From Nymphaea colorata (taxonomy: Eukaryota > Streptophyta > Magnoliopsida > Nymphaeales > Nymphaeaceae), in NCBI RefSeq assembly GCF_008831285.2, contig NC_045147.1, positions 16,780,854 to 16,844,853 on the forward strand: a DNA stretch of 64,000 bases, in the 5' to 3' direction. The first letter of the stretch is position 1. Every line of letters starts with the position of its first letter. The notes below the pieces were generated by a model. The model made no database searches. It was not told the DNA's origin and saw nothing but the letters and a program-made list of their open reading frames with translations. Shown here piece after piece: positions 3,001 to 64,000 of the stretch. A program made the translations under genes and the position numbers.

Positions 3001-5109
3001 AATGAAAAAAACTCGAAAAAAATGCGTTAAAAACATGTTTTTCGTTTTTAATGTTTTTTTCAAAAAAACATTTTTTTTTTAAAGTTTTAAACGGCCATTT
3101 AATTTATCACGTTTTTTCCCCCTAAAAAAACGCATTTTTTGTGTCAACACACCCATGGCCGTGTCCATCCCTTTTTGGACTCAATCAAAGTTGTCCATTT
3201 TTGTCCACTAATTAGGTTTTTTCTTTTAACCATCGTGTATATATGGTGAAAATGAAGAGCACTCGACAGAATTTGAAGGACTCTTCATCTTCTCTGCGGT
3301 CTAACTGCACCTGTTATGCAAGACTTTCTGGCAAGATTTTCCTGCGCTTGACGATTTTTCTGGTGATTTAGTTTCTCTAATTGAACTTTCTGTATTGTTT
3401 TGTTTGTTTAAAATCTTCTTTTTTGTTGTACACACACACACACACACACACATATGTACGGTGTGTCCCCGTACCCAAATCTTTTGAATGTGCTCTGCAA
3501 CCATACTCATACCTGCAGCCGTAACCATACCTATGTGACATAGGTTATAAAATTATTGATCTTGTTGTTCCTAAATCCAACATTCAAATACTGAACCTAA
3601 TCACAATATGTTTCTTGAACAGCATATTATTGGGCTATGTTTTCTAAGAACATGTGTTGCACAAACACAGTGTTCTTCTTATTGAACACTCACTTAATGA
3701 GTAAGGCTGCAAACTGTAATTTGTTTTGGTATCTTTATTTCTTAAGTGGCATGTATTTGTATGGTTCTTCAAATGAAAATCATACGATAAATGTTTCACT
3801 GATTGCTTATTGGTGCTCCATTCTTCTGAACTCTGGAGTTTCTTATTTTACTTGTTCAGGAGATCTTGCAGAATCCCAGATATTATACTAGTGGAAAAGG
3901 AATCTTGGCATTGTGAGGCTGAACTTGGCACTTTTGAGTGCATACAGGACATCAAGCATAATGGGCAAGTCCATGAAATGCCAAAGATGGTTCTTCTGGC
4001 AACCTCAATCAGTTCTGCAGAGTCTTTAAAAGCCAAGTCTGCTGGTTTTGTTGACACTCTGATCATGAAACCTTTGAGAGCCAGCATGATGGCTGCAAGT
4101 TTTCAACAGGTGCTAGGTATAGGCAATACACAGCAAGGGAAAGGAGTCCTTAGTGGTGGTCCTTTTCTGCGCAATGTGCTTTCTGGGAAAAAAATCTTAG
4201 TTGTTGATGACAATGGCGTAAATCGCAAAGTTGCTGAATTTGCTCTAAAGAAATATGGTGCTAATGTAGCATGTGCTGAGAGTGGAAAAATTGCACTTGC
4301 TATGCTTCAAATTCCACATAAATTTGATGCTTGCTTTATGGATGTCCAGATGCCTGAAATGGATGGGTATGCTGCTTTCTCAACTTATTAGTGTACACAT
4401 CATGTGCTCTCTTTCATCTTTAGATTGTCATGTTCTAGAATTATTTTCATTGCTCTTTTTTCCTCGGATGCATCATTTCCATCATTGAAGTTATAAACCT
4501 AATATGCTAGCCTGCTCATCATGGCCATCATTGATGTTATGGTTTTCAGAACCGTGAATTCATCAAAATTACTGATGGTATCATCTGGCATAGGATGATA
4601 ATCGGTCATCAAGGTTCCTGTTGAGCATCCAGTAGAGTCATTTGGCGGACATGATGGAATTGTCCACCTCCTCAGTTATCCATCGTCGTTGGTCACTGAT
4701 AGTGGCTCTTAGCAGCTTCTTCTCGTTTGTCTTCTATGCACTTGTGGTGCTGAAAGAAAGTCCCATTATTTGCTGAAGTTTGATAAAAGAATTTCTGTAG
4801 TAGGGTATTGCTGCTCTGGTTCTCCAGGCTGGTCATGTGGATGGTTGTTCCAAGTGACTGAAAGCTTGACCGCTTCACCTAGTTGACTCGGCTGGCTGTG
4901 GGAGTTTTGGGCGTGTGGTATCACACATATTGGTTTAGTCAAATGAATTAGTTACATTGATTCTGGATACACCATGGCCGAGAAAATGAAAACCAGGAAG
5001 CTGACAAAGACCTAGGGTCATCATGAGACGACCAGACAGACTTTTGATCATGTCATTGCACTGATTGGTTCAGTCGAATCTCGAGTGTATATAGTTAAAT
5101 AGATTCTGC

Positions 5110-19028: not shown

Positions 19029-22000
19029 ATGGCGAGCACTAGCAGCGGAGGGCTGAGGGCAGCTGCGTTGGTGGCGGCCATGGCGGTGGCGCTGCTGTTA
19101 GGCGCGTGCTTGGCGGCCACGGACGCCGGAGACGCTCGGGTGATGCACGAGCTGGCGACCGCCATCGACCCCGGGGGCTCCGCCCTCGGGTGGTCTTCGT
19201 CGACGGACCCCTGCAAGTGGAAGCAGGTGTATTGCAGTAGCGACGGGCGGGTGACGGGGCTCAGGCTGGGCGGGCTGTCGCTGGGCGGAACCCTCCCGGC
19301 GAGCCTCCGCAACCTCACCTCCCTCCAGACCCTTGAGCTCCAGAACAACAACTTTTCTGGCCCTCTGCCGAGCCTCGCCGGCTTGGGCTCCCTTTCCGTT
19401 GCCATTCTCCACGACAACTCCTTCACCTCCTTCCCCCCGGACTTCTTCTCGGGGCTCGCCTCCCTCCAGGCCATCTACCTCGACCACAACCCCTTCGCCC
19501 CTTGGGACATCCCCCTCAGCCTCGCCGATGCGACGGCCCTCGTTAACTTCTCTGCCAACGACGCCGGCGTCCAGGGCTCTATCCCGTCCTTCGTGGGCAC
19601 CTTCTCTAGCATCCTCTCCTTTAACCTGGCCTACAACAATCTCACCGGAGGCCTCCCTTCTTCCTTTTCCGGCACGTCTCTTCGGGTGTTCTGGCTTAAC
19701 AACCAGAAAGGCCCGAAGCTCTCTGGCCGCATCGACGTCCTCGCCAACATGACCGACCTCGTCCAGGTCTGGCTGCATTCCAATGCCTTCACCGGCCCGC
19801 TGCCGGACCTCGCCGCCCTGACGTCGATCACCGACCTCAACCTCCGGGACAATCGCTTCACGGGGCCCGTCCCCCCTCTCTCGTCTCTATCCCGACACTC
19901 AAGAACATCTCGCTCACCAACAACCTTCTTCAGGGGGGAATCCCGGTCTTCCATGCCGGTGTGGGTGTCGACAACGACCCGAAGTTGAACCGATACTGCC
20001 TCCCTACCCCCGGAAACTGTGACGAGAGGGTCACCGTCCTCCTCTCGATAGCAGGCGCCATGGCTTTTCCGGCTTACCTCGCAGACAGCTGGCAAGGGAA
20101 CGACCCATGCGGCGGCTGGGCGGGGATTACATGCAGTCCGAATGGGAATATCACAGTCATCAACTTCCAGGACAAGGGCTTTTCCGGAACCATCTCGCCG
20201 GACTTTGGGAAGATTCCCTCGCTGCAGAGGCTCATGCTGTCCAATAACAACCTCACCGGGTCGATCCCGCAGGAGATTGCCGACCTTCCAGCGCTCACCT
20301 ATCTGGACGTGTCAAACAATTCCCTCTCCGGGAAGGTCCCGCTTTTCAAGCAGAATGTGCAGCTTCTGATGAGCGGGAACCCTCAGCTTGGGAAGGATGA
20401 TGGTTCCCAGTCTGGTTCTGGCTCGTCCGGATCAGGTGGGTCGGGCTCAGGAGGAGCTTCTGGAGGTGGCTCAGCCGGAAAGCGGTCGTCTGCATCGGTT
20501 GGAGTGATTGTTGGTTCCGTGGTAGCTGCAGTTTGCGCTTTGGGCTTGCTGGGGCTGTTGGCTTTCATGGCGTACAAGAGGAAGCAGAAGGGATTCGGAA
20601 GAGTGCAAAGTCCAAACGCAGTGGTCATCCACCCACGGCATTCTGGGTCTGATCCCGAGCTGTTAAAGATCACCGTCGCTGGAGCCAGCAGTGCCAATGT
20701 CGTCCTGAACGGTGCGCAGAGCCAAGAGGCGGCTGGCCCGAGCGACATTCAGTTGGTGGAGGCTGGGAACATGGTGATCTCAATCCAGGTTCTGAGAAAT
20801 GTCACTAACAATTTCAGCGAGGAGAATATTCTGGGCAGGGGCGGGTTCGGAACTGTCTATAAGGGGGAATTGCATGACGGTACAAAGATCGCGGTGAAGA
20901 GAATGGAGTCGGGGGTGATTGGCTCGAAGGGGTTGGATGAATTCACGTCCGAGATTTCTGTCTTGACGAAGGTTCGCCACCGGCACCTTGTTGCGCTGCT
21001 TGGGTATTGCGTTGATGGCAATGAAAAGCTTCTGGTCTATGAGTACATGCCTCAGGGGCCTCTGAGTAGGCATCTCTTCAATTGGAAGGAAGAAGGAAGT
21101 AAGCCCTTGGATTGGAAGAAGAGGCTGAGCATAGCATTGGATGTGGCAAGAGGCGTGGAGTATCTTCACAGCTTAGCTCACCAGAGTTTCATACACAGAG
21201 ATCTCAAGCCTTCCAATATCTTGCTTGGGGATGACATGAGAGCAAAAGTAGCAGATTTTGGCCTGGTCCGGTTAGCTCCAGAGGGGAAATATTCCGTCGA
21301 GACGAGACTTGCTGGCACATTTGGCTATCTGGCACCAGAATATGCAGGTAATTGACTTGGGTGGAGATTAGCACAATCTACATATGTTCTACATCTGATA
21401 TTCTGGTTGTTGTAGAACAGAGAATTGCATGACTACCATGATCGAATATTTCAATATGTTTCTATCTGTAAAAACTTTTAAGGTGGAATTATTTCTTTTT
21501 TATGTTGGGGCAGCTTCCCCAAGGAATTCAAAATTTTTTCCTAGGTTGGAGTAGTGAAAAGGCTGCATGACTCCATATCATTTCTAGGATCACATTCATC
21601 AATGGACAGATAAAGTTGATATCTTTCATTCTTCACGATTTCTGAGACTCAATCTCTTGATTTCTGGCTTGGCATGTGCCACACTTAGTGTAGAAGCTTG
21701 CTGTTTAACTTGTGTAGGATTGACATAGCTTCTCCCCTTCCTTAAAATAATAAGAGATTTAAGTAGTTGCCTAATTCATAGAAAAAAATATTGTTTCTTT
21801 GAAAATTGGTATAAGTAGTGAAATTTCAGCTGTAAAGGATGTAATTTGACTCGTTCTCTAAAAGACATTAGAAATCACAAAGTACTTCAGAGTCTAAGAT
21901 CATCTTTTGGTTGGATTTTTTTGTGTTCTGGTTTGGGTTGCATGTGACTGGGATGCACATTTTCGGCCCTAAACTTTGCTTGGATATGTAATCCAATATG

Positions 22001-22596
22001 TTTCTTGAATTTTCTCTTTGCATATTTCTTAATCCTTTTGTGTGATATATTTGCTTTGGCATGCAGTTACTGGGAGAGTAACAACAAAGGCAGATGTATT
22101 CAGCTTTGGCGTGATTCTCATGGAGTTGGTTAGTGGCAGACGAGCTCTGGATGAGACCCAGCCTGAGGAGAGCATGCATCTTGTTACCTGGTTCAGGAGG
22201 ATGCATCTAAACAAGGATGCATTTAGAAATGCTATAGACTCTTCAATTGAACAGAATGAGGAGACACTTTCCAGCATCTTGATTGTTGCAGAGCTCGCTT
22301 GCCATTGTTGTGCTAGAGAGCCATATCAGAGACCTGACATGAGCCATGCTGTTAATGTGTTATCTCCACTTGTTGAGCAGTGGAAGCCAACAGGCCCGGA
22401 TGCGGATGACTTGTATGGTATTGACCTTGACATGACTCTGCCTCAAGCTCTAAAGAAATGGCAAGCCTTTGAAGACACACAGATGGGTGATAGTTCCTAC
22501 CCTGCTTCGATGGCTAGTCTAGATAACACACAGACTAGCATTCCAAATAGGCCGTCAGGGTTCGCCGATTCTTTCACCTCTTCTGATGGGCGTTGA
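19029..22596 (+). CDS. TMK1: TMK1-type LRR receptor-like kinase, reading frame interrupted by a 1-base deficit
   Basis: Plasma-membrane receptor kinase of the TMK family, known in Arabidopsis for auxin-linked cell-surface signalling. Two exons: 19029-21347 and 22067-22596, a GT-AG intron splitting a Val codon inside the kinase domain just after YLAPEYA. Seen in order: signal peptide (residues 1-29), LRR block, an island with paired Cys ([10 protein letters not shown] … GNDPCGGW, about 314-368), a second LRR block, a Gly/Ser-rich stretch, one membrane helix (about 488-512), then kinase with [11 protein letters not shown] (about 603), IAVKRM, RD loop [10 protein letters not shown] (about 723) and DFG. 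The frame breaks near 19870-19893: upstream sequence runs in one frame to a stop at 19988, while the continuing LRR ([12 protein letters not shown]) is in another. One extra C in the CCCCCC run at 19872-19877 restores a single frame of 950 codons, the normal TMK length. It may be a base-calling error or a true null allele. Confidence 0.9.
21348..22066 (+). other. Single intron of the TMK1-like gene
   Basis: 719-bp GT-AG intron (donor GCAG|GTAATT, acceptor GGCATGCAG|TTACTGG). It separates the activation-segment exon from the C-lobe exon, a position I recall as typical of TMK genes. Confidence 0.88.
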
Positions 22597-31699: not shown

Positions 31700-33240
31700 A
31701 AGTCGCGACAGTGCGGTTTTGAAATATGTAATCCCAGCTAGTTGATTTGAATGTGGAATTAATGTAAATTGGTTCGATCAACATAACTAAGCCCCACCAA
31801 GAGGCATTTAACATCCAGATCTAGCATTTGACTCGGTTGACTTGGAGTGATAAGGGTGCAGTTCGTGCTACGAGCACCGCTGGCTAAAGGAGTGGATCGG
31901 GTTCTGCTCTCGATCTTATGCTTCTGTATTGTCCATGTCAACTCCGCCGCACTCGGACAAATCCGTCACCCTGTTGTCCAAAGATTCACATTTTTTTTTA
32001 ATTACCCTTTTTTCTTTGTCATTTTGGAAAAATGCTTTGATTCGAGGACTCGATGTCACCGACTTTGATATTTGTGCCATCTTTTGACATGAATTTTGCT
32101 TGGTTGGCGTGACCATGGATTCAGATGTGAACGTCTTCCACCAATGCATGCCTTTGCGTCCGGACCGGAATACAAACAGGGACTCCCCAGGATGCCCTCA
32201 CAGAAGGGCGGTGGTATCAAAGGAACGATGAGGGCAAAACTTGAAAACAAAATGAAAAGTTGATTGAATAAAATGGGAAAACTCATCTTTATGTTAACAA
32301 AGGTGATAACCAAACCCATGTTAAATGCGTTCATAGCAATGTCAATGGATAAATTTAGGTTCGAATTTCTACATTATATTTACAACCCAAATTTTCAATT
32401 TGCAATCCGAATCCAATCCCATTTCAACTTTTATTTTCACATCAGTCTTGAGTATGACTTTCGAATATATCTTCGAATTTGAACTAAATATAAATCCAAA
32501 TCCAACCAGATCTTCATAAACATGAATCCAACCAGGTGTCATTTCTGAATCTCATTCAATTCCATATTCATATGTTCATTGCTTTCTCAACTTTTTTAAA
32601 GCATTTCAATCAAATACGTAATTCAAATCCGATCTATTGTCATTTCTATGGGGGCTTTGGACCTGGTCTTTTGAGTGAGTCAAGAACATACTTGGCTGAC
32701 TCGTTGAGTTGGCTTGAGAATCGTTTGAGTAAGCTCGATTCACGAGAAAAACCTGGCCATGAGTCAAGGTTGGCTCGGCTTGATTTGCTCACGACTAGGT
32801 TCTGACTCATCCGATTTAGGTTATTTAAAAACTCGATCGAATTGAATTGATGTGTGAACTAACTAACCCACTTACCGGATCATCTTTCAATCCGAGTCCC
32901 CGAGTTGTAGGTTTAGTGCCATAAGTCGCCCAACACTAACCGCTAGTTTTTGAAATAAACCGTCACATTTTGAATTTTCAACGGTCAACGTTCAAACGCG
33001 CCAGTTCCATAATCAATCTTTTTCTGGCCTCTCTTGCAGCGATTTACTAAATTACCCTCCCCTGATGACCGTCAATTTCAACAGAAGTGGGCCATGAACG
33101 GTAGATTTGACAAAGTTTGGGGGTACCACGGTGATGTTTTGAACGGCTGGAGGGTGGTCCCCACCCGAGCCTCTCGTTCCCGCGTCCCGTGACTGACTCA
33201 ACGGGCGTATTAAAGGGGGCAAACAGAGAACCAACCAACC
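31700..33240. other. Gene-free spacer upstream of the U-box gene
   Basis: AT-rich DNA becoming GC-richer after about 33030 as the promoter region of the U-box gene is approached. The open frames here are short and unrecognised. Confidence 0.5.
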
Positions 33241-33248
33241 CACACAAA

Positions 33249-33255
33249 TATAAAT
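33249..33255 (+). promoter_or_regulatory. Candidate TATA box for the U-box gene
   Basis: TATAAAT, 108 bases before the chosen start codon at 33363. That position argues for the downstream start rather than one at 33189, which would lie upstream of the box. Confidence 0.4.
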
Positions 33256-33362
33256 TCCCAACCTCAGACGCAAGTAGGGAGACTGGACTGGACTCCGAGT
33301 TCCGGTCGCTCGTCCTTATTTATGTTCCTCTGGCCAACAACGCCTACATACTAACCAGCTCG

Positions 33363-34709
33363 ATGCCGCTGTGGAGAATCCGAATGGGGTCCGGAAGGAG
33401 CAAGTCCGGCGAGAGGCTGTCTGGCAAGACTGGGCCGCCGGCGGTCGACCTCTCCGAGGTCGTCATACCCCCTGCATTCCGGTGCCCCATCTCGCTTGAC
33501 CTCATGAAGGACCCCGTCATCCTTTCCACCGGCATCACCTACGACCGGCAAAGCATCGAGAGGTGGCTCGACGACGGCAACCACATCTGCCCCGTCACCA
33601 AGCAGCCCCTCCAAAGCTCCGAACTCGTCCCCAACTACTCGCTCCTTCGGGTGATACAGAGATGGTGCGTCGACCACCCATCCGCGGGAATCGAAAGGAT
33701 CCCCACGCCTCGGGTACCTGCTTCTCGGTCTCAGGTCGCCGAGATGCTCTCTCAGGTGGAGATTGCGAGCCGGCGCGGCAGTCCGCCCAGCTTCGCGACC
33801 GCCGTGGATCGGATTCGGCTTCTGGCGAGAGAGAACGAGCGGAACCGGCGGTGTGCTGTGGGAGCCGGCTCGGGTGCGGCTCTCACCGCAGCTCTCGCGG
33901 CCTTCTGTGAGAGGTTCGCGGAGGCGGAGGGGGATGTGGAGCCGAATGCGGCCGTTGAGGCGGCGCTGGCTGCTGCGGCAGCGGTGATGCCGCTGGACGC
34001 TGAAGCATGTTCCCGGGTGTGGACTCGGTCGTGCATGAGGCGCCTGGGTAGGGTGCTTCAAGGGGGCAGCCTGGAGGGGAGGAAGAACGCGACGTCGTTT
34101 CTGAGGGCCGTTCTGGAAGACGAGGTGGAGGTTGCAAATAACAGGAAGATTTTGGAGTCGACTCCGGCGCTGGTGGAGGGGCTCGCAAGGGCAGTTCGGG
34201 AGCCGATCTGCCCGTCGGCGACGAAGGCCTCGTTGACGTCCATCTTCCGGATGGCGTCCGCCAGCGACCAGATTGCGTCCCGGGTCGTGGACTCCGGCTT
34301 GGTGCCCGTGCTGCTGGAGACGCTGGCCGAGTGCGAGCGCGGGGTGTGCGAGAAGGTGCTGGCGGTGCTCGACCTGGCGTGCGCGTGCCGAGAGGGGAGG
34401 AAGCGGGCGTGCGAGAACGCGTTGGCGGTGCCTGTGCTGGTGAAGAAGGTGCTGAGGGTGTCGGAGGCGTCGACGGAGCTGGCGGTGTCGGTGCTGTGGA
34501 GGCTATGCAAAGGGGCGAGGGACGACGCCGTGGTGACGGAGGCCCTTTCGATGGGGGTGTTCCAGAAGCTGCTGTTGCTGCTGCAGCTGGGCTGTGGGGA
34601 AAGGACCAAGGAGAAAGCTACGGACCTGCTGAAGATGATGAACGCCTACAGAGACAGGGGCGACTGCGTTGACTCCGGCGACTTCAAGGAGGTCAAGCGG
34701 CCGGTCTGA
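33363..34709 (+). CDS. U-box/ARM E3 ubiquitin ligase, PUB20/PUB21-like
   Basis: Plant U-box E3 ligase that would transfer ubiquitin to substrates. Relatives of this class act in stress and immune responses; the substrate is not predictable. Single exon of 448 residues. The frame is open back to 33189, but I start at MPLWRIRMGSGRSK because PUB20/21-type proteins begin shortly before the U-box and run about 430-440 residues. The U-box spans about residues 36-105 (PPAFRCPISLDLMKDPVI, TYDRQSIERWL, CPVTKQPL). The rest is a Leu/Ala-rich helical region, about 130-435, that fits ARM-like repeats. Coding GC is very high, unlike the flanking spacers, and the gene has no intron. Minus-strand open frames over the same region are shadows of that composition. 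A meaning for the N-terminal extension from 33189 is unlikely. Confidence 0.92.
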   Translation: MPLWRIRMGSGRSKSGERLSGKTGPPAVDLSEVVIPPAFRCPISLDLMKDPVILSTGITYDRQSIERWLDDGNHICPVTKQPLQSSELVPNYSLLRVIQRWCVDHPSAGIERIPTPRVPASRSQVAEMLSQVEIASRRGSPPSFATAVDRIRLLARENERNRRCAVGAGSGAALTAALAAFCERFAEAEGDVEPNAAVEAALAAAAAVMPLDAEACSRVWTRSCMRRLGRVLQGGSLEGRKNATSFLRAVLEDEVEVANNRKILESTPALVEGLARAVREPICPSATKASLTSIFRMASASDQIASRVVDSGLVPVLLETLAECERGVCEKVLAVLDLACACREGRKRACENALAVPVLVKKVLRVSEASTELAVSVLWRLCKGARDDAVVTEALSMGVFQKLLLLLQLGCGERTKEKATDLLKMMNAYRDRGDCVDSGDFKEVKRPV

Positions 34710-38743: not shown

Positions 38744-39273
38744 AGCTGCCATAGTTTTCGAAGTATATTTAGTTTCCATCACTTGCCTACACCATATTCG
38801 CCTATGTTGACTCCCTTAATTAGGCGCACGTCCGGTACTTTTCCACGTTTAACTTTTTCCATGATAAAATCTTTTTAAGATTGTAACGCCTTCCAATATC
38901 TCGTGCAGGGGAGAATTTCAAATTGACATCTAAAAGTATGTCGGAATGATAAAAGTTGGCACGCAACTTTTGAGAAACATGGAAGTTTAATAAGGGAAGT
39001 TGGATCGCCAAACCATGTTCACTGGCGATAAACCATACATAAAATAAGCAAACGAAAAACGCATCAGCTTCTTCAAATCTTCAGGCTCTCAATTCCCTGT
39101 GTTACTACACATAAGTTGAAGCGCAGCAGGAACAACATTCCAATACAACACTCCAATACACCAAAAACAGACTTTGTACTCTGAGACAAATGGTTATGTA
39201 AGAGCTTCGGCGTCTATATAGGTAGTAAGATGAAATACTCCTCATCCTCACAAAAAAAAAAAGTAGATGTCTT

Positions 39274-39455
39274 TGTCAAGCAAAGTAGCGAACAACTCCA
39301 TAATTGCAGCTTGCCTTAAAATAGACTCCTAGGGGATTGAAGTGGATGGTTCGATGACTAGATTTGTCAAGCAAAGTTGCGAACAACTCCATAATTGCAG
39401 CTCGCCTTAAAATAGACTCCGGGGGGATTGAACTGGATGGTCCGATGACTAGATG
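39274..39455. repeat. 91-bp tandem duplication
   Basis: Two head-to-tail units beginning TTGTCAAGCAAAGT at 39274 and 39365 with only a few substitutions between them, so the duplication is fairly recent. It is non-coding. Confidence 0.92.
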
Positions 39456-40459: not shown

Positions 40460-41990
40460 TATAGTTCTTTCATTTGGGGAGACTAATTTACTAGTTGATC
40501 TTGGTGGATCTAGCCCTAGACTAGCCATTCATACTGTGATAATCAATTCAAAATGCATATGATTGCAAATTTCATGTTTCATAAAAAATTGATAACACTA
40601 GGGGCCCATTTGCCTAATGGAACAATAACATACCTTCAATGAACCTACCCTAAAAAATGAGGGAAGGTTCATAAATCACTAAACATGAACCTTTTCTATT
40701 AGCTAAACAATCTTAAAGGTGTTGTTTGGCAATAGTAACACATTGTTACTGTCCCTCACATCTGTCCAAAAAATAAGACAGATTCATGAACACATTGTTA
40801 CAATGTTGAATGAATCTACCGTATTTTTAGGGGTACATTCATGGAATAATAACCATGTGTTACTATTACCGAACAGCTTCTACTTGGGAATATCTGAATG
40901 ACATTAAAGTTAAGCCAAATCCAGTTTCGATAAAACCTAGTTTATAAAGGGCTTGAAGAACCCGTCTGCAAGGTGGGCAGTCGGCAGTTGGAGTCCCATG
41001 TGCATCACCTGCTTGCCCAAGACAAGGCATGATATTTTTTTGTGTGCATCACATCCGATATGTTCAAATTTGCATGCAAATGACTTGTGAAAATCATAAC
41101 CATCATCTAGATGTCATCAACAGATTGAACTTCACAGATTCCTTTCTTCAATGTATTTTAATTGTATGACGAAAAGAATGCGGAAAGAAGCAAGGAAGTA
41201 CCGCTCGACCAAAAAAATCCTAACTCTGCCATTGATAAAAGATGAGCCAACCCAAGTATAGGCAAACTGAACTCTGATGTAATGGGATGTTGGCTCACTT
41301 GCATAAAACTGTTACCATATCTGGAGAGATTAGCAATCTAAATTAACTGTAATTAACGAAACATAATGTGGACATCAAACTTTGTGGGGATGTCCACACA
41401 GCCACCCAATCGGACCCGACGCAGACTTTTCGGGTCTAGGTCCGATCATTGAGTCTTTTTCATTGATATTCGAGGCGGCTGTTAAACAACAAACAACAAA
41501 GGAATTTCATCAGGGACCAATGATTTAGCCTTAATTGTTACCAGAGTCTCATTATTACAACTTTCAAATAAATGCCGCCTATACCTAACTCAAGTGAAAA
41601 ATGATAGCAAAATCCTTCATTGTGAGAGCAAACAAATGCTTATCAACTTCGAATTAAACATATAAAACGCCACATGTTTCCAAATGAACTCTGCCTTTTT
41701 GCCTTTTATTTCAATTTTTTTAGAAGATGGGGTCAGATTTTTCACTTTAGATCATAGAGTACACCGCTATCAGGAAATTCAGAAAAGTTAATTGCCGCTT
41801 TGGGGGAAAAACTAAAAGATGGGCACCTGAATTGGGAATTATCTTTAACAGGATGGAGGGCAAGAGGACCAGTCCCTGTCCCAAGGCATGCGTTGACAAT
41901 AACCAAAGAAAAAAAAAAAAAAACCACGGCGGCTATAACCAACCAAACAACCGTCCCGTACCTCTATCTAATCAGGAAGGCAGAGGAAGG
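40460..41990. other. Gene-free spacer upstream of the S-domain receptor kinase
   Basis: AT-rich DNA with no recognised coding region. A TATA-like CATATAAAACG occurs at about 41659 but is far from the start codon. Confidence 0.5.
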
Positions 41991-41992
41991 CC

Positions 41993-44428
41993 ATGGCTGC
42001 AAATGAAGGCTCCATGGCCACCAAAATTCTCATCCTCCTTCTCATCTTCTGCTTCTGTTCTCCAATCTCTTCTCAGAAACAACTACCCTTTCTCTCTCTG
42101 TTTCAGTCCCCGTGGCGCATCGACCAGAACCAGATCCTTGTCTCTCCCAACGGCACCTTCGCCGCCGGCTTTCGACCCCTGCCCTCCACGCCACAGCTTC
42201 ACTTTTTTGCCATTTGGTGCCAGAATGCTACAGACAAGACAGTAGTGTGGGCGGTTAACCGCGATTTCCCCGTGAATCGCTCTGCCTCTTTGGTCTTGTC
42301 CTCCACCGGAGAACTGGTCCTGACGCACCCGGCCACGGGTAAGAACCTCTGGCCTGATGCCAGAACCAACCAACCGAACTCAACGAGGTTGCTCCTGGAT
42401 GATGGTGGCAACCTCCAGTTTGGCGACTGGATGAGCTTCAACCACCCGACAGACACCATCCTCCCCAACCAGCCACTTCCACAAAGCGGGATCACCCTTG
42501 TCTCCAGCCGAAGTCCGACCGATTATGCATCCGGCAGATACAAGTTCATCAACTCCACTGTGCTGGTCCTCAACCAATCAGATCAGTACTGGACCCTGGG
42601 GAAATTTTTAAACTTTACATCTGATGGAAAGATGCTCACACCGACCAATCCTATTTTATCAGCCGACTTCGGTGGCCCTAGCAGGCTGCGGAGACTAACT
42701 TTGGACTCCGATGGGAACTTACGAATGTATTCTCTGGAACACGGCTCGGGAAACTGGACCGTGGTCTGGAATGCCATAGCAGATGTGTGCAACATCCATG
42801 GCACCTGCGGCCCGAACTTTTTCTGCAAGTGCAACACCATCACGAACCTCCCCTCCTGCATCTGCCCACCCGGATTCCGGGAGACCCCAGCCGGCAGCTG
42901 CGATAGGAAAATCCCACTCCCGGCAGACCCCAGAGGGAGTAAATTCATCAGACTCGATTATGTCAACTTCACCGGCGGCTCAAACCAAACAGACCTCAAA
43001 ACTCCGGATTTTGCTACCTGCAAAACAAAATGCTTAGCTAATCCTCGGTGTTTCGGCTTCGCCTACAAATATGACGGCAGCCAATACTGTGTTCACCAAA
43101 TCGATCGCCTGCTGGACGGATTTTGGTCGCCGAATACGCAAACTTCATTTTATCTTCGCGTGCCTGCGAATGAGTCTGCCACTTCAAACTTCACAGGGAT
43201 GGACAAGCCGCTAGACACCACATGCCGAATTCCCATCCGAATCCTAGAACCCCCAAAGCGATCACACACAAAAACCAGGAATCTGGCCATCGTCCTCTCT
43301 GTCTTCGTCATCGAGCTCGCCTGCGGCGTGGCCTTGTTCTGGTTTTTCCTTCGCAGGCACAACAAGTACACCAGCTTATCACACGCATTCGGCTTCGAGT
43401 TCCTCCCAGCAGGGGGTCCCAAACATTTCTCTTACGCAGAACTCAAGGCTGCTACAAGCAACTTCTCTCAGATAATCGGCGAAGGAGGATACGGCGTCGT
43501 CTACAAAGGCCAACTTCCAGACGGACGAGTGGTCGCCGTGAAACGCCTTAAGACATCCCCCCGCAGCGAGGCTGAGTTATGGGCAGAGGTTAAGATCATC
43601 GGAAGAATGCACCACCTCAACCTTGTTCACCTCTGGGGATTCTGTACCGAAAAGCAGCAAAGGCTGCTGGTCTATGAGTACGTCCCACATGGCTCCCTGG
43701 ACAAGCACATTTTCCCTGAAAAAATGGGGGATGAGAAACAGACGGCATCGAGGCCAGAGAAGCCCACGCTTGACTGGAGCATACGCTATCGGATCGCCGT
43801 GGGTGTGGCAAGGGCCATCGCCTACCTACATGAAGAATGCATAGAGTGGGTTCTTCACTGTGACATCAAGCCAGAAAACATCCTGTTAGAGCAGGATTTT
43901 TGCCCAAAGGTATCAGATTTTGGGTTGGCAAAGCTCCTAAAGAAGGAAGATATCTTGACCATGTCGATGATACGCGGAACTCGAGGGTACATTGCACCAG
44001 AATGGCTTGGATCAGAACCGATAACAGGAAAAGCAGATGTATACAGTTTCGGGGTAGTGCTGCTTGAGATGTTGACTGGGATTCGGAGCTTTCAGCAGCA
44101 AGGGCATTCTATAGAGAGCCACGAATGGTACCTCCCGGAGTGGGTGTTCAATAAGGTGTACCAAGAGAAGAACATCGAAGAGATTCTCGACCCGCAGCTG
44201 CTGCAGACATTTGACAACCAGCAGAATCATGTATTGGTCGACAGGATGGTCAAAACAGCAATGTGGTGCTTGCAAGACCAGCCTGAATTGAGGCCTTCCA
44301 TGGGTAAGGTTGCTAAGATGCTGGAAGGGGCAGTGGAGATCAAAGAACCAACGAGGCCGACCGTTTTTTATTTAGCAGAATCCAGCAGCCAAGCAAGTAG
44401 GATAGCTCCTCAAGAAAAGAACCCATAA
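41993..44428 (+). CDS. G-type lectin S-domain receptor-like Ser/Thr kinase
   Basis: Single-pass surface kinase of the S-domain (SD) family, whose members act in self-recognition, immunity and development. This one's ligand is unknown. Single exon, 811 residues. Seen: signal peptide (about 1-27, a Leu/Ile-rich run ending PISSQ), bulb-type lectin domain (about 45-160, with NGTFAAGF and VVWAVNRD), an EGF-like Cys cluster (CNIHGTCGPNFFCKCN … CICPPGF, about 263-293), a PAN-like Cys region (about 330-395), one membrane helix (about 430-452), then the kinase (about 490-780) with GEGGYGVVYKG, VAVKRL, HCDIKPENILL, SDFGLAK and GTRGYIAPEW. The catalytic loop has Cys before the Asp instead of Arg, so this is a non-RD kinase, a class often linked to innate immune signalling. 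The extracellular part is rich in N-glycosylation sequons. The intronless form and layout resemble the At1g34300/ZmPK1 type; no closer orthologue is claimed. Confidence 0.93.
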   Translation: MAANEGSMATKILILLLIFCFCSPISSQKQLPFLSLFQSPWRIDQNQILVSPNGTFAAGFRPLPSTPQLHFFAIWCQNATDKTVVWAVNRDFPVNRSASLVLSSTGELVLTHPATGKNLWPDARTNQPNSTRLLLDDGGNLQFGDWMSFNHPTDTILPNQPLPQSGITLVSSRSPTDYASGRYKFINSTVLVLNQSDQYWTLGKFLNFTSDGKMLTPTNPILSADFGGPSRLRRLTLDSDGNLRMYSLEHGSGNWTVVWNAIADVCNIHGTCGPNFFCKCNTITNLPSCICPPGFRETPAGSCDRKIPLPADPRGSKFIRLDYVNFTGGSNQTDLKTPDFATCKTKCLANPRCFGFAYKYDGSQYCVHQIDRLLDGFWSPNTQTSFYLRVPANESATSNFTGMDKPLDTTCRIPIRILEPPKRSHTKTRNLAIVLSVFVIELACGVALFWFFLRRHNKYTSLSHAFGFEFLPAGGPKHFSYAELKAATSNFSQIIGEGGYGVVYKGQLPDGRVVAVKRLKTSPRSEAELWAEVKIIGRMHHLNLVHLWGFCTEKQQRLLVYEYVPHGSLDKHIFPEKMGDEKQTASRPEKPTLDWSIRYRIAVGVARAIAYLHEECIEWVLHCDIKPENILLEQDFCPKVSDFGLAKLLKKEDILTMSMIRGTRGYIAPEWLGSEPITGKADVYSFGVVLLEMLTGIRSFQQQGHSIESHEWYLPEWVFNKVYQEKNIEEILDPQLLQTFDNQQNHVLVDRMVKTAMWCLQDQPELRPSMGKVAKMLEGAVEIKEPTRPTVFYLAESSSQASRIAPQEKNP

Positions 44429-50607: not shown

Positions 50608-51912
50608 CTAGGTAAAGCCGCGCCGGCGCTGGCGCTGCTTTCCGGCCGTCATAGGCTTCTCCAACAAGGCGGAGATGTACGTCTCGCGCATCTGGGGGCC
50701 CCTGTCCAGCTTCCGGCCGACGGTCCACTTGACCCTCTTGAAGCCGACGGCGTCGATCATGGGGACGTAGACGTCGTGCATCTGGTCCTCGAGGCAGAAG
50801 AAGTGATCGAGCCAGAAGACTCCGCCCGGCCGCAGCACCCTGTAGATGTCGAACAGCGCGAACTCCAGCAGCCGCGTCGGGATCCAGTTGCTGAGGACGT
50901 GCATGGAGTGGACGATGTCGAGCGTGCCGTCGAAGAAAGGCAGCCGCTGCGATATCGACAGGTACAGCGGCACCACTCCTCTGGAGGCGATGAAGTTGTT
51001 GAACGGCCCGTTGAAGTTCATCGACGTCGTCACGATCGTCACGTTCCGCTCCCTCATCCTCACCGCGAACGTCCCCGTCCCGCCGCCGATGTCCAGCCCG
51101 ATCCGCACTGTCCCCTTCTTGTACGCCAGCACATCGTCGATAGAGTAGTCGAGATCCGCTACCGGCCCCACCCACCGGCGACTCTCCCGGCCGCCGAGGT
51201 CGAAGCAGTCCTTGCAATCGTCGAACCCCTTTTGGTTCTTCCGGTCCACGAGGCACGAGTAGTTCTTGCAGGCGTAGGCCGTCCAGACTACGGACGAGTC
51301 GTCGGGGATCGACCAGAGGGAGGCGGGGAAGGGGGCCGGCTCGACGAAACGGGCAGGAAGGGCGGGCGGAGAGCGGCAGCGCCGGCGAGGAAGGGGCTCG
51401 CAGCCCCGGAGGAGGAGGCGCTGGGCGAGGAGCTCGTCGTCGGGGCAGGGCCCGCCCACGGTGTAGTTCATGTAACGGGCGAGGTCCTCGGGGAACTGGT
51501 CGCAGGCGCGGCCGGCGGGTGGGTTGATGTGGTCTGACCCGAAGTTGGAATTCCGGCCGAGGGGCAGCTTCTTGGGGGAGACGAACTCGAGGTACTCCTT
51601 GGGGAGGAGGAGGTCGGCTTCGGCGTCAGACGCCGAATCAGGGGAATCGGCGGTGCCATTGGGGAGGGAGGAGGCCAACTGAGATAACTGCTGCAGAAGT
51701 AGACCGGACGCGGATCTGGTGGCGCGGAGCTCGTCGCGGAGGCGGTCTATCTCTTCCTCGGCCCTGAGGAGGGATTCAGTGAAGCTGCGGGAAGTGTTCT
51801 GACGGAAGGGGCTGTCGGAGGAGAAGAGGGACAGGGTGAGGAGATTAGAGATGAGCACACAGAGCAGGAGGAAGCAGAGATTATTGGAGAAGGATCGCGG
51901 GCTAGCATCCAT
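50608..51912 (-). CDS. Type II membrane putative S-adenosylmethionine methyltransferase (At1g29790-like)
   Basis: Single-exon gene of 434 residues. The N-terminus is cytosolic and short, followed by one membrane anchor (about 10-30, NLCFLLLCVLISNLLTLSLF), then a predicted coiled-coil stem (about 46-80, AEEEIDRLRDELRATR) and a Cys-rich lumenal part. The SAM-binding motif IGLDIGGGTGTFAVRM lies at 271-286, with later motifs DGTLDIVHSMHVLSNW and YRVLRPGGVFWLDHF. This layout fits the plant putative methyltransferases placed in the Golgi/endomembrane system, related to but shorter than the quasimodo2-like pectin methyltransferases. The acceptor substrate is unknown. Start at 51912 is chosen because it gives the membrane anchor right at the N-terminus. 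Coding GC is very high; the long open frames on the other strand and in another minus frame (50522-51256) are shadows of that bias. Confidence 0.9.
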   Translation of the reverse strand: MDASPRSFSNNLCFLLLCVLISNLLTLSLFSSDSPFRQNTSRSFTESLLRAEEEIDRLRDELRATRSASGLLLQQLSQLASSLPNGTADSPDSASDAEADLLLPKEYLEFVSPKKLPLGRNSNFGSDHINPPAGRACDQFPEDLARYMNYTVGGPCPDDELLAQRLLLRGCEPLPRRRCRSPPALPARFVEPAPFPASLWSIPDDSSVVWTAYACKNYSCLVDRKNQKGFDDCKDCFDLGGRESRRWVGPVADLDYSIDDVLAYKKGTVRIGLDIGGGTGTFAVRMRERNVTIVTTSMNFNGPFNNFIASRGVVPLYLSISQRLPFFDGTLDIVHSMHVLSNWIPTRLLEFALFDIYRVLRPGGVFWLDHFFCLEDQMHDVYVPMIDAVGFKRVKWTVGRKLDRGPQMRETYISALLEKPMTAGKQRQRRRGFT

Positions 51913-51954
51913 TTCTCCTCCCTTCCGCTCTCCCTCGCTCTTTCTTTTTCTTCT

Positions 51955-60800: not shown

Positions 60801-63796
60801 TATATAGACACCAATAAAAGCTATAAAACAATAAATGTTTAAAACAGGTGAACAACATGAGCTGATTTTACAATAGATATTCATAACTAAAAGTACAAGA
60901 ATGTGTTTCTCACCTCATATTCAAGAATGTCCAAAAGGTCATAATGATCCGAGCTGGCATGATTGTCAACAATGAAAGAAAAGAATCAAGACAGACGAAG
61001 AATCCAACATTAATTAGCTGCACAGATTTAAATGCATTAGGAATTGTAACCGTCAAACATATGTACACTACATTGAGAACAAATATTGAAATTTAGCATT
61101 GGACTCAGTTGTAAATTTAACATGCTTAAATTCATGATAAATGAACATCTATTGCAAGGCTCAAGACAAATACTAATGTACTCAGTACATGCTTGAAAGA
61201 AAGGAGGCAAGCGTGCACCAACAAGATGCTTAATGCAAGAGTTACAATGCTGAAAAAGATTCACCGTTCCAAATGAACTGGTTAAGCAAACTTGTCTATT
61301 TTTGGTTGTCTTCTGTCCAAATCTGATCCCCCAATTGTATGTACTTAGCTGATACATGTTTCACAACCCTAATCTCAATATGAGCCTTATAAATTCTACA
61401 AGCTATGTTGATCGACTATTCTTCTTGCATACACCAAGTCGTAAGTCAAACTTTTTGTCCATGAAATCATGAAACACCCCCAGTAAGGAAAGGAAGCAAA
61501 TTCACACTTTGGATAATTAGCAATTTCACACCAAAGAATGAGAAGAAGAATATAATCCAATGCTAAAAGAACAGAGAGCAGTGATAAACCAGTTCACATC
61601 TCCATGGCACATGAAACATTGTATTGTAGACCCTCTGCCTCTTCTTCTCATTTCCAACAGATGCTGTTATCCTTAAAGAATTTCCACCATGTATCTCCCC
61701 CCAGAAATACTGCAATGGCATCTTTTCTACGGGCACGGTGCTTGAATCTGGGTCAGACATGAGGTTCACTATGTAACCAAAATTGGAACAATGACTGAAG
61801 AAACAAAAGGCTGCATATAAACAGGTTTTCTACAACAATTATCTCAAAAGCACACCAGAATGTGCCAACAAAAATCAATGGAAGATCTGACACCACAACC
61901 TGAGGTATTCTATTTCTATCCACTATCCAATCCAGATGCTTGATGCATTTATTGTGTAGTTTGCTTTGTCACTTGCTTGACTGCGAGATAAACTGTGATC
62001 CCGCGGAGCTTCTGTATCCTATAATCTATGTCACATAGACATGCCTAAAAGGCTGCAGCATCCACGTCAACAGTTCAGGACACAGGTGCACTCTTGGACA
62101 AGGCAGGTACCCAATCAAAGCCATGCTGAATGCAGTCAACACATAAACACTTTTTTGTACAATTTGGACTCGATCAATTTTTATCAAGCCCAAATTTATC
62201 TTTCTTAAAACTTTACAGTGTTCTTTTTATTTGGTCACAACTAAATTACTTCTCTTTCTCCTAAACATTTTGATTATGGGTATCCATATAACTTTGGTGG
62301 CTTTAGGTACATTTTCCGACCATCATTTAACGTCACTAAGCATGGGACTTGACTTCCAAGAAAGGTTTATGTTCTTCTTCACCGTCTATTGTAAAGAGAA
62401 AACACCTCTCAAATATTTAGGATGGCCTGGTATAACATGTTGGTCATTAAACCCAGTACCAAAGAATAGTGGTAAGAGATAAGGCATCCTAACTCCATCA
62501 GTCAGCCAGTAAGGCTTCCATTATCTATGTTCTTTTTTTTTTCTTTTTCTTCGGAAAAAATCTTCTTCTTCTGTTCCTATAGTCGAATTACATTTCGATC
62601 TGTGCAACATATATGGAACGTTTGGTTATGTCAAACATATTGCCTTGTCCTTTAACGGGCATCATGGCCTCTTTCAATTATTCGTCATGTTTCCCAGCTA
62701 CTCCCGTCACTTTGCAACTACACTAATGTTATTCACAGTTAGTTTCTCATATCTTCATTGTGCTAGAAGACTCCCAACCACAACAATTACTGCAATATTT
62801 CGATTTCCTCTGTTTTACTGGAGATGACAAACCCACATTAGCATCCCCTATTTTCGTTCGTTCTATATTCATGCTTAATGAGGCACTTGTTCCAACAAAT
62901 CTTCATTTCCTCAAACAACTGTATCCTTCTGATAACTGAAAATCAGTATAATCATTTTTGCTGCGCAATTTCAACCCCAATTAATAAAAAAGTGATGTCC
63001 TTCAAAATGCCCACTTTATAACTGAAAGAAAGATAACCAGTTCGTTGATGGGATTTCCGTAAGGTAGCAATGAATTAAATCCACACTTACGAAATGAAAC
63101 AAGATAGAGAGGCTTACAATTCGAATCATCTGTGGTTAAAGTTTTCCAATCTAAGGACTTCTCTGTTTCCAGACGTGCATTCCCGTTGGACAGGGACCCC
63201 CACTTCCCGAGATTATTAGACATCGCACTGTCATCCTCCTTTGCATGTGCATCTGACCGACCCCCCGACCTGTTCGAATCCAAATCTCTGCCTACATGAC
63301 TCCCATTCATTGCTCGCTGCCTTAGTTCAACAGAAGCAATCGGCATGACCGATGAATTTTCCAAACTAGGCTCCAAGCACACCGTCTGGACACCCCCCAT
63401 GCAAATCGACTGGAATGGCCTAATCTCTCCGATCAAAGATTCGTTAGCAACAGGCTCAATTCTAGGGTATACTGAGCCTTCGACGACGGCTATCTCCAGA
63501 TTTTCAGCACGATCGGCCCCAACACCATGTCCCAGAACCTCACCGGAGGCTAAACCAGATCGATTGGTAGCAGTGGCATCGATAGAATCTCCAGCATCGG
63601 CATCCTTCAGCTTGGAACCTTTACTCTTCCGTTTTCGCTTCCGCTTCTTCTCCAGGAGGAACGAGACTCCGTCATCGGCCAGCTCCTCTGTAATAGCCGC
63701 TGACTGCGATCCGGAAAGAAGCCCTACATTTTCTCCGATGCTCTCGTCGGCGAGGAGCTCAAAGGGAAGCTTCCGCCCCCTGGGCCTCACGTCCAT
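57855..63796 (-). CDS. POD1: POD1/TAPT1-family multi-pass membrane protein
   Basis: Homologue of Arabidopsis POLLEN DEFECTIVE IN GUIDANCE 1, an ER membrane protein needed for pollen-tube guidance and early embryo patterning; the animal relative is TAPT1. Eleven exons on the minus strand: 63796-63118, 61768-61590, 61017-60914, 60329-60241, 60123-60050, 59959-59809, 59719-59549, 59418-59321, 59220-59098, 58215-58147, 58061-57855. They total 1944 nt (647 residues plus stop), and all phases agree. The N-terminus is hydrophilic with a Lys/Arg cluster (EKKRKRKRKSKGSK). The conserved part holds YNTMFHVPWRCEL, FFVCLDSFLSLLTIMPAR, IIRGQGTLKLYVVYNVLE, IFDKLCQSFGGDVVQVLF, HSFILLAQAITLSTCIVAHN, IDIIKHSFLAKFNDIKPEAY and PLAPACVVIRVLTP, with several membrane helices. 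I start at MDVRPRGRKLPFELL because the family begins there; an earlier in-frame ATG (63868) would add 24 Ser-rich residues. The intron 59808-59720 has an ATATCCTTTT 5' site. Confidence 0.92.
59720..59808 (-). other. Probable U12-type (minor spliceosome) intron in the POD1-like gene
   Basis: On the minus strand the exon ending GCATTCA is followed by ATATCCTTTTT, which fits the U12 5' splice-site consensus. TTCCTTAGC (59734-59726) fits the U12 branch site, consensus TTCCTTAAC. No GT-AG pair gives an in-frame join here. Ending the intron at 59720 joins AVIAF to IIVHSFILLAQ, matching the family's length, but the 3' dinucleotide would then be GA. An alternative join, exon ending 59807 or 59806 with the next starting at 59723 after AC, adds residues. 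The 3' boundary is unsettled. Confidence 0.65.
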
Positions 63797-64000
63797 GGAT
63801 GGGATCCCAGCACACGCGCGCGCGAGAGAGAGAGAGAGAGATGACGACGACGACGGATTTGTTCCCAACGGCTGATGACTGCGGCCTCTCTCTCTCGCGC
63901 GCGCTCTCCCTCTCTCTCAGTTGGCGGCAACCGAGCCGATCCCCGGAGCGTGACAAGCACGTCAGGCTCGCTAGTCGCTATTATTATAGTTTCATATTTG
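63797..64000 (-). promoter_or_regulatory. 5' leader and promoter-proximal region of the POD1-like gene
   Basis: Upstream of the start codon (minus strand) lie GA/CT-rich tracts (63822-63841, 63888-63920), common in plant 5' leaders, plus a GC-rich patch near 63930-63950. No clear TATA box is seen within the 200 bases available. Confidence 0.45.

Follow-up and report, generated by a model that had tools for sequence, protein, structure and literature searches.

TMK proteins are leucine-rich repeat (LRR) receptor kinases of plants that act in auxin-linked growth signalling. As outlined in the account of the family in PMC3628703, two LRR blocks with an intervening sequence are a TMK feature, and the location of an intron in the kinase domain is common to TMK genes. 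The same account describes the Arabidopsis quadruple tmk mutant as infertile, while single tmk mutants look normal. TMK1 is described in PMC9546594 as acting at the membrane and, through its cleaved kinase domain, in the nucleus. Here we describe a TMK-like gene from Nymphaea colorata, found in a 64-kb window (the whole stretch of DNA that was analysed, 64,000 nucleotides), in which the reading frame is broken once within the first exon.

By its predicted domains and alignments, 19029-22596 on the forward strand is a TMK-type LRR receptor kinase gene of the plant TMK subfamily. This identity had been proposed in an earlier sequence-only reading of the locus, and is borne out by Pfam domains and by alignments with Arabidopsis TMK1 and TMK3. 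The 5' part of the gene is read in one forward frame (frame A, 19029-19874), where Pfam places LRRNT_2 and then the first LRR block, and to which TMK1 and TMK3 both align. Its N-terminus is hydrophobic and, judged by eye, forms a putative signal peptide. Frame A runs from ATG at 19029 to TGA at 19986-19988, an open frame of 319 residues that ends in an out-of-frame tail of 37 residues (19875-19988). The rest of exon 1 lies in a second forward frame (frame B, 19874-21347), recognised from its open frame, PDB alignments and Pfam matches, and without a stop over 19700-21355. Within exon 1 frame B contains the last LRR of the first block, the intervening region and the second LRR block, followed by a transmembrane segment, read by eye, and a kinase domain which reaches APEYA at the end of the exon and covers positions 2-168 of the 263 in the Pfam kinase model. 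A second LRRNT_2 match was barely over its Pfam cut-off. A 719-nt intron with GT...AG ends and 34.5% GC is predicted from the sequence at 21348-22066 on the same strand. Exon 2 (22067-22596, forward strand) would then supply the remaining kinase and the C-terminal tail, ending in TGA at 22594-22596; a Pfam kinase match is also found in the open frame 22033-22593 at this exon. Among its kinase motifs the gene has the glycine-rich loop, [16 protein letters not shown] and APE.

The locus can be compared with the TMK subfamily trait by trait. Two LRR blocks with an intervening sequence are present, as seen from Pfam LRRs in both frames and from the TMK1 alignment, and so are the transmembrane segment (by eye) and a Ser/Thr kinase domain (Pfam, in frame B and exon 2). 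The predicted intron at 21348-22066 lies in the kinase domain and may correspond to the one whose location PMC3628703 describes as common to TMK genes. What the locus lacks is a single continuous receptor frame: frame A stops at 19988, and the continuation is frame B. Exon 1 (19029-21347, 2319 nt) and exon 2 (22067-22596, 530 nt) together come to 2849 nt, one base short of 950 codons with the stop, in agreement with the 949 residues previously predicted for the repaired protein. Going by its sequence this is a TMK-type gene that, as written, would encode no TMK receptor.

Homology was searched in PDB sequences and Pfam only. For frame A, TMK1 and TMK3 were the top two among 38 PDB sequences with E 1e-30 or better: TMK1 (PDB 4hq1) aligned over residues 12-272 with E 1.7e-82, and TMK3 (PDB 7brc) gave E 2.5e-71. 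Frame B up to 20520 aligned with residues 266-465 of TMK1 (4hq1; whole-sequence E 2.7e-75) and with residues 244-455 of TMK3 (7brc; E 2.6e-60). GSO1 (6s6q, E 4e-81) and FLS2 (4mn8, E 6.1e-79) ranked above TMK1 for frame B by whole-sequence E-value, but through many short matches to repeated segments of generic LRR sequence. The longest single stretch for frame B, 200 residues and 212.7 bits, was with TMK1; a single TMK1 alignment crosses the TMK intervening region, which no single one with GSO1 or FLS2 does. The Nymphaea gene matches TMK1 (4hq1) in the two LRR blocks and in the region between them, and differs from it in that its frame is broken between the equivalents of chain residues 272 and 273. 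TMK3 (7brc) aligns to both pieces more weakly than TMK1, and the frame break is the same.

The join between the two frames can be followed residue by residue. The TMK1 alignment of frame A stops at chain residue 272, encoded by 19872-19874, with 37 residues of frame A remaining, while residue 273 is found in frame B at 19874-19876. There is no gap on TMK1 between the two frames, and they share base 19874, so that a single base is missing where they meet. The TMK3 alignment continues 12 residues into the frame A tail, with few matches. The switch from residue 272 to residue 273 falls at a run of six C on the forward strand, which occupies 19871-19876; the earlier placement of this run at 19872-19877 was one base too high.

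Codon usage gives a second view of the same break. An initial codon scan was partly circular because the TMK-like gene was within its training set. A one-switch codon model was then trained leave-one-gene-out, on the three other genes, with background counts from the whole window, and was applied to 19029-21346, with exon 2 outside the test. Against the best single frame its gain was 152.4 nats, with the change-point peaking at 19879 and 19861-19892 lying within 2 nats. Under the same model the control gains were -1.9 nats for the PUB frame at 33135-34706, 1.4 for the S-domain kinase at 41972-44425 and 0.6 for the methyltransferase at 50611-51954 on the reverse strand. A second frame switch was not needed in exon 1 by this change-point analysis, and the 2844 nt of the three coding pieces contain no further stop. 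Not one of 5000 first-order Markov sequences stayed open over 492 codons; over 19871-21346 the remaining two forward frames contain 20 and 14 stops. There is a single frame switch in exon 1, placed to within a few codons. The proposal of a single break at the C run, or very close to it, is upheld both by the join on TMK1 and by the codon change-point; the run is the simplest place for the missing base, although the exact base is inferred.

The window as a whole is 40.5% GC and contains no N, and its genes belong to plant families by Pfam. Pfam was run on 30 open reading frames from a longer list, some overlapping or on opposite strands, and at E 0.01, taking the frames ten at a time, matches were seen in 8/10, 1/10 (under its cut-off) and 0/10. 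A cytokinin-receptor-type histidine kinase is encoded by two forward-strand exons, 838-1773 and 3777-4391, with HATPase_c, Receiver_CRE1 and Response_reg matches; its CRE1 receiver domain is divided between the exons at profile positions 1-54 and 56-136. Three long frames are unbroken: a U-box ARM-repeat (PUB) frame at 33135-34706 (forward strand, 524 residues stop to stop), an S-domain (G-type lectin) receptor kinase frame at 41972-44425 (forward strand; B_lectin, S_locus_glycop, PAN and kinase) and a methyltransferase-like frame at 50611-51954 (reverse strand, 448 residues stop to stop). On the reverse strand, 63005-63916 is an open frame of 304 residues with coding-like codon use, by a score trained on the window genes, and with no Pfam match at E 0.01. 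A tandem repeat at 39272-39454 consists of two copies of a 91-base unit with 93% matches, and no tRNA was found in the 64-kb window.

If the sequence is correct, an unannotated intron might join frames A and B in the mRNA. Pairing donors within 19600-19874 with acceptors as far as 20400 gives 94 GT-AG pairs of 60 nt or more that would restore the frame. The shortest, 19869-19933 (65 nt), would excise 22 codons, roughly one LRR, and leave the kinase intact. The size of the excised piece and a GC content of 53.8%, below that of the flanking exon (69.6% and 61.2%), speak for this pair; its donor agrees with the consensus at 3/9 positions. The best donor, at 19767, agrees at 6/9, and splicing it to its nearest partners would cost 46 or 56 codons. 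Across all 94 pairs the donors reach 2 to 6 of 9 consensus positions, against 8/9 for the kinase-domain intron, and the candidate introns are 53.8-65.7% GC against its 34.5%. The residues that they would remove are present in both TMK1 and TMK3, and the codon signal runs right up to the break and resumes directly after it. Such an intron is very improbable. Less probable still is a programmed -1 shift of the ribosome at the C run, which would yield a secreted ectodomain fragment together with the full receptor. In frame A the run is read as C CCC CCT, and slipping back by one base would put the ribosome into frame B. Efficient eukaryotic -1 sites, however, generally require A or U in their second triplet. 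A slippery heptamer with a stable RNA structure was also sought; the downstream RNA folds no better than its shuffles, with z-scores of +0.83 and +0.68 and with 159/200 and 147/200 shuffles folding at least as well, in a model that leaves pseudoknots outside. Given the single switch, the lack of any further stop and the poor support for an intron or for frameshifting, the choice falls between an error in the sequence and a recent null allele.

We favour a consensus error over a recent single-base null allele and consider it probable, as a judgement made from the sequence of the window. Reads, basecalling or polishing would have under-called a C homopolymer, leaving the reported sequence one base short at the six-C run, and the plant itself would carry a gene with one continuous frame that encodes an ordinary membrane receptor kinase of ~949 residues. 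The defect is a lone missing base at a homopolymer in a gene which has no further stop in 2844 nt and in which the kinase motifs are present. PMC8011154 describes frame-shifting homopolymer indels that survive polishing as an error of nanopore data, and the deficit seen here is likewise of one base at a homopolymer and likewise breaks a coding frame; that source concerns nanopore assemblies of microbial genomes, and the parallel would depend on the platform behind this window. In the 64 kb there are no C or G runs of 7 or more, where Markov simulations expect 1.5-2.7, and zero such runs occurred in 4-18% of simulations (200 for each Markov order, four orders in all). Such a lack of long C/G runs is only marginally unusual, and a general homopolymer collapse is weakly supported by it. 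Across the whole window C and G runs reach six at most, A runs up to 15 and T runs up to 13. Against an error, two other coding six-C runs (19433-19438 and 43557-43562) lie in intact frames, as does a six-G run at 19933-19938, 57 bases downstream of the C run; with the other three long frames tested unbroken, the rate of error in this region is not evidently high. The alternative, which we regard as possible but doubtful, is that the allele is real: replication slippage shortened the C run and left a recent loss-of-function allele or a young pseudogene. Its transcript would encode 319 residues, a signal peptide and part of an LRR block, lacking both membrane anchor and kinase; it could also undergo nonsense-mediated decay, and paralogues would cover the function. 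C runs are natural slippage sites, and one lies at the break. One null can also be tolerated, since PMC3628703, in its account of Arabidopsis mutants, reports single tmk mutants to be without discernible phenotype. The lack of a second disabling hit caps the age of a null only at about 0.5-3.6 Myr, assuming 3e-9 to 1.3e-8 substitutions per site per year, indels at a ratio of 0.1-0.2 and a broken frame from two thirds of them, so a young null fits. Yet the same lack of a further stop in the 2844 coding bases, the single switch sufficient for exon 1 and the intact kinase motifs leave such an allele with no positive mark of decay. An old pseudogene was set aside, there being no further stop in the 2844 nt. 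A technical origin of the missing base is inferred as most likely. The assembly error suggested by the sequence-only reading thus stands as the likelier account, on the strength of the lone homopolymer defect and the frame free of further stops; against it, the run-length evidence is weak, other six-base runs lie in intact frames and the loss of a single TMK is tolerated in Arabidopsis.

The consequences depend on which of these readings holds. The loss of the kinase foreseen for the unrepaired sequence is supported, as frame A ends before the kinase. If the six-C allele is real, it would leave a 319-residue fragment, presumably secreted, with neither membrane anchor nor kinase. Because TMK1 is described in PMC9546594 as acting at both membrane and nucleus, the Nymphaea copy would be deprived of both outputs if its kinase were lost. 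That a real six-C allele has been kept and yields a soluble LRR fragment, alone or with some full-length receptor made by frameshifting or splicing, which acts as a decoy in auxin-linked signalling, is extremely unlikely. Whether the break is an error or marks a young broken copy, its significance would be ordinary. A real six-C allele would be a null in a family that tolerates single loss. If instead the break is technical, as we think probable, automatic annotation would wrongly split a TMK gene in two or call it a pseudogene, which is of consequence for counts of receptor-kinase genes.
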